From Hypomesus transpacificus (Eukaryota > Chordata > Actinopteri > Osmeriformes > Osmeridae), in the NCBI RefSeq assembly GCF_021917145.1, contig NC_061067.1, positions 2,513,224 through 2,577,223 on the forward strand: a stretch of 64,000 bases of DNA, read 5' to 3'. Positions within the stretch are counted from its first letter, which is position 1. Each line of letters opens with the position of its first letter. Shown here one piece after another: positions 17,152 to 20,100 of this stretch. The notes beneath the pieces were generated by a model. It was not told the origin of the DNA, did not search any database, and saw only the letters and a list, made by a program, of their open reading frames with translations. The translations under genes and the position numbers were made by a program.

Positions 17152-20100
17152 CTACCCCCTCAGCAAAGCATGGCCTGGGGAGACACACACTGGATGAAGA
17201 AACAATGTGTGTGTGTGTGTGTGCATGAGTATGAGTGTGTGTGTGTTTGTGTGAGTATGTGTGTGTGTGTGTGTGTCTGAGTGAGTAAGTGTAAGAGGGT
17301 GTGTGTCGGAGCATTGCGTGCACCAGAGAACAATAACTTCTCACCTTTCTTCTTATCCAAGGTTTCCATCATCTTCTTTACCCAGGGTGCCTTGGGGTCA
17401 CTGCAGACAGGGCCCTCCTTAGTCTCGAAGCTGAAAGACACCAGATGACAGATAACATCATGTGGAAATTATCAGTGTGTGTATGTCTTTGGGGGGGGGG
17501 GGGGTGTTTATGTGTGTGTGTGTGTTTGGGGGGGAGTTCAGGGACTTACTAAACAGCTTCCAAGCAAGAGGGAGGATCAGCCTTTACTCTGTGGTATTCA
17601 CCGACATTCTTGAGAGTACGATCGTTCAGACTCTTACAACAAAAGGTTGGCTTGAACTTAGTGGGCAAGCGAACTGAGAGAGAGAGAGAGAGAGAGAGAG
17701 AGAGAGAGAGAGAGAGAGAGAGAGAGAGAGAGAGAGAGAGAGAGAGAGAGAGAGATAGAAAGAAAGAAAGAAAGAAAGAAAGAAAGAAAGAAAGAAAAAA
17801 AGAAAGAAAGAAAGAAAAAAGAAAGAAAGAAAAAAAGAAAGAAAGAGACACACCAAAAGTGACACATTCACTTGCACACGCTTCTTTCAAGAGTTGAATA
17901 ATAAATAGTCAAGTCATTTCACTGTCCTGAGCTTCAGAAGGTGAGAATTCAAACAGGAAGTTAAACAAAAGGTGTGAAGTTAACTTCTCATGCTGGTGTT
18001 TAGAATGCAGCTCTGCATTTGCATCATACGTAATGCAAGCATATAATACCAAACTGGTTTTTACCGGGGGGGTTTTCCACTGTGAAAATGTTTCAATACT
18101 TTTAACAAGTGTCCTAAACTCTTCCTAAACACACCTACAACACACAATTGGCAAAACGGTTAATATAATGCTCAAATTCACACATTGTAAACGAAACTCA
18201 AACACTAATTTTCATCACACAAAAATACACTAAGCATACACCATGTCTACCAAAACACTATAGCACGTCATAATTTCTTCATGTTTTGGCTACTCGCAAT
18301 GTTTTTGGGGCTATCTTGTTGTTGTTATTATCAGTGACCTATGCAATTTACAAATTGAGCTCTCTCTTGGAAATCGCTTTGGATAAAAGTGTCTGCTAAA
18401 TGAATTAATGTAAATGTAAATACTAGCATCACATTTACATTTAGCAGACGCTCTTATCCAGAGCGACTTACAGTAAGTACAGGGACATTCCCCCCGAAGC
18501 AAGTAGGACCTTGCCCAAGGACACACCATCATGTGGCACAGCGGGGAATCGATCCGGCAACCTTCTGATTACTAGCCCGACTCCCTCACCGTTTAGCCAT
18601 CTGACTCCCATCAGATGGAATTACAGAAACTGCATCATTTTATGTGTCAGCTCTCACAGTATATGGATCATGAATGGTGTTTTGCAATGCAGTTTCTGTT
18701 GAAGCCTCTCCACATTTTTGTTTTGTTGGGTTTAGTAAATGCATGCATTTAGTTTCTGTTGCTGCAGAAATTCAAAACAAGAAATGAATGACCCATCTCA
18801 TAGTAGCTTTATAGAATGTACTGTTACTGTATTGAAAAAAGAAGACATAATTGCCGCAGTAAAGGCTTCATTTGCAACAGGACATTACTGCAAGAAATAT
18901 GCAATATAGCTGCCATTTACAGTATTTCATCAGCAACCTAGCTCTGGCCCTTCTCAGGCATTACATATTCGTACTTTCTTCGTGTTGCGCTAAATTGTTG
19001 TTTTTCCACACAAGATCAGCCCAAAGCGGTCCTCTTTATATATACCAAATGGTCATGCGATTGAAAGAAACTCAACACCTGAGTGTTTCCTAGTTGGGAA
19101 TCAGCTGTGATTTACAGTATTTGCATAACTTCAACCAGCTGTTTCTCAGTAGCATTGGAATAAAATACAGGGGATATATTTGTGTTTCAATTCAAAATAT
19201 GAACAGCTGTTCACTTTGACTTTAGCCAAAAACTTAGGTTTGAACATGATGTTATCTGTTCTGACATACTGTGTGAAAGCATTGGTAAATTGGGCAGTAC
19301 AAATCGATAGTTTTGGTCTTGGTTGAGCTTACATGTAAAAGAAGCTCAAACATTTTCAATTTGTGTTTACACTATGCATTTTGTGTCATAGCCAATTGTC
19401 ATAGCGATTGTAAAATACTGTAAGTTGTGTCATTTTGAACAGATGATTATATTTTTAAATAACAAATGATCTAAGGTGTTTGTGTATTGTATCCAAGCAA
19501 TGGAAAATCGTGTTAGCATAAAATAAATATGCATTTTGATCATCGGTTGTGAGTTTTGTGTCTAGAGTTTTAAAAAAAGAACATGAAGGTTCTGAAATTA
19601 GTGTCAAAGTGATTGTAAAAAACGGTAATAACTAAACTAACTCTAATTCTAAAACTGGTTGTTCCCATCCTTGATTGTGATTGGCTATATCGCATTCCAT
19701 GCCGTTGTAAAATCCAGCATAACCTCACAGGTTGTCCTCATAACATTCTTTAACATTCCATATTACTGCGCATCGAATATTTCAAATTGAAAAACACGGC
19801 AGGTGTCCATCTGGCTGTTGCGTGGCAACGATTTATATAGGAACTATACTTTGTAGTAGCGGAAGAATGACGGTTTATTATTAAATTATTTTGTTTCTAA
19901 TTGTTTTTATTGATAAAACCATATCAAATATTTGTAGCAACACTTTTAGAAAAGCAATAAGCCCCAAGTGGCCTCCGCTTCGCGTCGTGCCTAACAACTC
20001 CCCTTACCTGTTCTAAAATCAGATCAAATCAAATCAAATGTATTTGTATAGCCCTTTTTACACGCAAGCATGTCACAGAGGGCTTCTAAAATCAGCGTAA

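Follow-up and report, generated by a model that had tools for sequence, protein, structure and literature searches.

Positions 8471-8507 and 17645-17681 in the genome of Hypomesus transpacificus carry one and the same 37-bp segment, in the first case within an intron of vipr2 and in the second at the start of exon 2 of a chemokine gene (here, chemokine 1). Which of the two is the original, and how did the other come about? Positions are those of the window, the whole 64,000-nucleotide stretch analyzed here (RefSeq assembly GCF_021917145.1, contig NC_061067.1, positions 2,513,224 to 2,577,223 of the forward strand). A first-pass annotation had offered two answers. Either a (CT)n-linked mobile segment was gained by chemokine 1, which it favored, or part of the exon was copied into vipr2.

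Extent and surroundings of the shared segment

The identity over 37/37 bp reported in that annotation is exact. Both copies have the same orientation, the bases differ on each flank, and the distance from start to start is 9,174 bp. The final 6 bases of the match are part of a (GA)n tract, and the non-repeat core is 31 bp long. Because this core, with up to 3 mismatches, is found twice in the real window and never in 100 dinucleotide shuffles of the window, the match is not due to chance. The segment had been described as the acceptor CAG with about 31 nt of exon; the acceptor is indeed included (17674-17676), but the exon part amounts to 29 nt (17645-17673), followed beyond the acceptor by 5 nt of (CT)n. 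Likewise, a (GA)n tract adjoins the copy at vipr2 and at chemokine 1 alike, as had been noted, but a (TG)n tract on the other side of the vipr2 copy had been missed. Identity over 31/31 bp suggests that the event is not ancient, with an age bounded only loosely, as the rule of three permits up to ~10% divergence.

When the window was compared with itself with tandem repeats masked, the chemokine 1/vipr2 pair was the sole fully identical direct pair listed; dispersed repeats were listed too, and among the inverted pairs one of 23 bp was identical. Near the end of the window, a 373-bp direct duplication (61501-61873 and 61985-62357) is 92% identical, and a 68-bp tandem array of ~19 copies with 98% matches (62710-64000) runs past the window end.

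The vipr2 gene was located by tblastn with a hand-typed human VIPR2 sequence, which gave a colinear series of plus-strand matches. Two of these, at 7335-7430 and 10274-10375, flank the copy and bear out its placement in a vipr2 intron. When all six frames of positions 1-9999 were scanned with Pfam, no vipr2 domain was detected. The copied acceptor is antisense to the vipr2 transcript and so probably does nothing there.

The exon structure of chemokine 1 is predicted from sequence (Table 1), and by eye a short fourth exon may start from ~17174. As in CC chemokines, the joined reading contains adjacent cysteines, and intron 1 is a phase 1 intron placed immediately upstream of the CC motif. The reading scores 41 bits with Pfam IL8 (PF00048; cutoff, 21.3), the query having been typed by hand with one wrong residue. 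A protein search with exon 2 gave no match but itself. The PDB and Pfam comparisons point to a chemokine in general and do not support an assignment of orthology.

Assembly is difficult in long dinucleotide repeats such as those at both sites, and a chimeric read or a bad gap fill in the repeat could in principle have produced the second copy. We regard such an assembly or library artifact as very unlikely: the vipr2 copy differs just past the match (GAGAGACAGA versus GAGAGAGAGA), it is flanked by unique vipr2 sequence, and the contig that carries it is 14 Mb long in an assembly of 376 contigs.

Table 1. Features of the two loci that carry the 37-bp segment (window positions)
Feature	Position	Strand	Remarks
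Proposed recipient locus (vipr2)
vipr2 exon match upstream of the copy-bearing intron	7335..7430	+	tblastn E value 0.002; weak alone, colinear with the others
(TG)n tract left of the insert	8419..8471	+	TRF
Recipient copy of the 37-bp segment	8471..8507	-	In vipr2 intron, antisense to vipr2
Putative insert of 29 nt at the (TG)n/(GA)n joint	8472..8500	-	Equals 17646-17674 (28 nt of exon plus acceptor G)
(GA)n tract to the right of the insert, with the supposed priming site	8502..8612	+	TRF
vipr2 exon match downstream of the copy-bearing intron	10274..10375	+	tblastn E value 1e-6
Proposed donor locus (chemokine 1)
Chemokine 1 exon 3 (predicted)	17345..17430	-	86 nt
Chemokine 1 exon 2 (predicted)	17550..17673	-	124 nt; contains the CC motif, with a stub of 32 nt ahead of the first Cys
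Donor copy of the 37-bp segment	17645..17681	-	First 29 nt of exon 2, the acceptor CAG, and 5 nt of (CT)n
(CTTT)n(CT)nCAG tract closing intron 1	17674..17852	-	Probable polypyrimidine tract
Chemokine 1 exon 1 (predicted)	20470..20524	-	55 nt coding; signal peptide by eye; phase 1 end before GTAAGT donor

Copy number in the assembly

A pattern search of the assembly (437,198,280 bases in 376 contigs) for the 31-bp core found the two known places and no further copy at up to 3 mismatches, with none for the reversed control; counts from such a search are lower bounds for repeats, and the core itself is not a simple repeat. Similarly, a 121-bp DNA query returned three rows: each of the two known places, and the (GA)n tract that adjoins the copy in vipr2. 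The flank to the right of the vipr2 repeat tract and the 31 nt of chemokine 1 exon 2 directly beyond the match are each single copy (up to 3 mismatches), so the copy ends inside the exon. Two other exon starts that adjoin pyrimidine tracts (vipr2 at 7334 and a chemokine locus, L008) have no second copy at the same tolerance. Within the window, 117 microsatellite flanks were compared, and a second copy was found for only 3, all of which belong to the chemokine 1/vipr2 pair.

These counts bear directly on the option that a dispersed (CT)n-linked mobile segment became part of chemokine 1, bringing an acceptor and a new N-terminus with it. What had suggested a mobile unit was the (GA)n tract next to the segment at both places, and long pyrimidine tracts are in fact commoner near acceptors than elsewhere. 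Of 18 acceptors in the window, placed by hand and some only approximately, 3 have a long tract of at least 95% pyrimidine no more than 30 nt upstream, versus 2 to 3% of positions (binomial probability, ~0.018). The three acceptors are those of chemokine 1 exon 2, a vipr2 exon at 7336, and a putative last exon at ~27107; in addition, a (CCCT)n tract precedes exon 2 of the L008 chemokine. Simple repeats thus seem to fill the role of a polypyrimidine tract here, and a position next to (CT)n is no mark of a mobile unit. Moreover, two places in 437 Mb are not the many copies expected of a dispersed element, and the segment lacks ends of its own: one end falls within a coding exon, and no target-site duplication is seen at the flanks.

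Two further observations concern the tracts themselves. Very long pyrimidine tracts at 7073-7335 and 11711-11847 end at or near vipr2 exon starts. In chemokine 1 intron 1 (17674-17893, minus strand), the last 186 nt contain, besides the A of the acceptor, one A at -83, and the next A is found from -187; with so few A residues, the branch point must be distant or within the repeat.

Exon 2 starts in the chemokine family

To place the start of chemokine 1 exon 2 in its family, we used a PF00048 search of the genome, whose matches (at least 43) include chemokine 1 exon 3 but miss its exon 2 and chemokine 2. Of these matches, 30 were taken as loci, and the 16 loci with an exon 2 (CC or CXC) match were compared; the 14 exon 3 loci and the 13 weakest matches, some of them exon 2-like by profile range, were set aside. 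CAG and TAG acceptor sites up to 75 nt upstream were scored, any phase being allowed, and the best score was taken. The best acceptor was in the phase of chemokine 1 in 15 of these 16 other loci and in chemokine 2; in the exception (L036), a distant site scored slightly above an in-phase one at 32 nt. At L033, two sites were in phase, and the script picked the one at 65 nt, not the one at 20 nt; at the other 14 in-phase loci, the stub between acceptor and first cysteine is 5 to 35 nt long. The stubs of chemokine 1 (32 nt) and chemokine 2 (17 nt) fall within this range, the former at its long end, and a 32-nt stub is also found in two other loci (L014 and L029).

Among 12 other CC genes (11 loci and chemokine 2; 66 pairs), stub identity is 9.5% versus 34% for the core, two figures that were not measured alike, since stubs were compared ungapped from the CC motif and cores by gapped alignment. 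As stubs hardly match one another, the lack of RLPTKFKPT in chemokine 2 is what would be expected for most paralogs. The argument that its absence there favors a gain by chemokine 1 thus fails, because CC paralogs in general have unlike stubs. Nothing unusual is left in chemokine 1, whose N-terminus seems to have the same freedom to vary as its paralogs' N-termini. An acceptor phase and a stub length that are the family's own add to the two genomic places and to the 3 of 117 flanks, all from this pair, in making the mobile segment extremely unlikely, and the explanation that the annotation favored is not supported.

The window contains a third chemokine-like gene (27107-28194, minus strand) with the exons MHVSIFVRHMLCFFTLSMVILSFT, DQGQCFRVEVSYCTRYDRKVAGQVIACYEQEIGRKSPIHAFQ, and LKLKNGRTRCIHPEEPWLQKKLEK and no adjacent cysteines. 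It seems to retain only the second and fourth chemokine cysteines along with extra ones, a pattern that we take to be like that of C (XCL) chemokines, and its exon 3 shows a weak PF00048 match (E value, 1.86).

Direction of copying

For an empty-site test, the 29-nt piece was removed from each locus in turn, the direction being judged from one assembly. Without 8472-8500, vipr2 reads GTGTGTGTGTGAGAGACAGAGAG, a continuous (TG)n(GA)n compound repeat with no residue left over. Sites of this kind are abundant: exact (TG)9(AG)9 occurs 327 times in the assembly versus 21 times for the reversed order, (GA)9(GT)9. Compound microsatellites show a strong polarity genome-wide. When the piece is removed from chemokine 1, (CT)n joins TTTTGTTGT. 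The first downstream AG then begins 7 nt past the start of the CC codons, and the upstream tract has no AG except the acceptor until about -199. With no AG near the CC motif, chemokine 1 without the piece has no usable acceptor.

The empty-site test at both loci supports the option that part of the exon was copied into vipr2, as do a splice phase and a stub length that are ordinary for the family and the large number of (TG)n(AG)n sites. Very probably, judging from these sequences, one local copy was made from the chemokine 1 exon edge into the vipr2 intron, the segment being the original start of exon 2 and the vipr2 copy a templated insertion.

Identity alone gives no direction, and a single transfer the other way, in which vipr2 intron sequence displaced the start of chemokine 1 exon 2, might be argued from a stub that is long and unlike the 12 paralog stubs compared with it. 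Such unlikeness is expected, given that the 12 other stubs are just as unlike one another (9.5%, 66 pairs). Furthermore, the intron sequence would have had to provide an in-phase acceptor and an open frame of normal length while the old acceptor was lost, and the perfect closure of the vipr2 site without the insert would be left unexplained. We therefore hold this reverse transfer to be quite improbable.

A proposed template switch primed in the repeat

On the assumption that chemokine 1 was the donor, the junctions suggest how the copy may have been made. Read on the minus strand, (CT)nCA is followed by GTTCGC in the donor and by CACACA in the restored recipient, so that the agreement of the two stops where the insert begins. 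At the entry, CTCTCTCA is common to donor and recipient up to the divergence; at the exit, the overlap is one base only, a single shared C. A repeat shared up to the start of the insert fits a template switch primed in that repeat. The event might have run as follows. (i) Replication or break repair within the vipr2 (GA)n tract would free a minus-strand 3' end terminating in CTCTCTCA. (ii) This end would pair with the similar (CT)nCA(G) sequence that closes intron 1 of chemokine 1, ~9 kb away. (iii) Extension by 29 nt would follow, copying the acceptor G and then 28 nt from exon 2 of chemokine 1. (iv) The nascent strand would leave its template at CCAAC and rejoin the (CA)n side through the one shared C.

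We infer the switch, its timing, and its strand from the scar, and a nearly identical one would result from patching on an RNA template or from ectopic gene conversion. The first of these, in which the vipr2 site was patched from chemokine 1 pre-mRNA without a DNA switch, has a precedent in class 2 templated sequence insertions, which carry microhomology without target-site duplication or poly(A) and for which RNA templates have been proposed (PMC5110952). Here the template would have to be an unspliced RNA, since the intronic (CT)nCAG matches together with the exon, and for a donor ~9 kb away with a shared repeat a DNA switch is simpler. Patching from RNA is thus unlikely in our judgment, and the template switch between DNA strands is the route that we prefer.

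If a switch of this kind took place, the scar hints at its own mechanism, in that the two repeats agree up to the first base of the insert, and a motif common to two microsatellite edges can be a copying scar rather than a mobile element. One may speculate further. (CT)nCAG acceptors and (TG)n(AG)n microsatellites share the minus-strand end CTCTCTCA, and in fish genomes rich in microsatellites, the compound ones may receive copies of exon starts time and again, leaving antisense or sense exon tips that are occasionally spliceable. We consider this generalization unlikely; should such scars be frequent, compound microsatellites would form a searchable record of germline template switching. In nonexhaustive literature searches, nothing was found on vipr2-chemokine synteny or ccl44 gene structure or on templated insertions at compound microsatellites that involve exons, and among the records listed, no title or abstract opening mentioned (CT)n acceptors as insertion donors.

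Comparison with known insertions

There is a close likeness to the human class 2 templated sequence insertion polymorphisms, which are characterized by microhomology at the junction and by the lack of target-site duplication and poly(A) (PMC5110952). The vipr2 copy is likewise a short piece from elsewhere in the genome. It has an identical source sequence and junction microhomology (CTCTCTCA at the entry and C at the exit), and by eye its flanks (GTGTGTG and TGAGAGA) show neither poly(A) nor a target-site duplication of at least 5 bp, although a duplication is hard to see inside a dinucleotide repeat. Unlike the human class 2 cases described there (PMC5110952), it is found in a fish, with a donor only ~9 kb off and a long repeat common to donor and target.

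Two other systems share parts of the proposed mechanism. In templated insertions linked to MMBIR, two donors were scored, and at least 1 bp of microhomology was present at 138 of 155 resolvable junctions in one and at 135 of 148 in the other (PMC8421209). The vipr2 copy, too, is a short insert that microhomology-primed template switching can explain, but it is direct with a template ~9 kb away, whereas the cases scored there were inverted with templates within 100 bp (PMC8421209). As for the microsatellite, non-B-forming repeats are described in PMC11161834 as causing breaks and switches to non-allelic templates. A microsatellite site and a non-allelic switch would be features of the vipr2 case as well, although that system consists of HeLa ectopic constructs and extrachromosomal circles and the vipr2 case is a germline insert (PMC11161834). 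Most likely, then, what the vipr2 intron carries is a copying scar, small and of an ordinary sort, from an event of a known kind.
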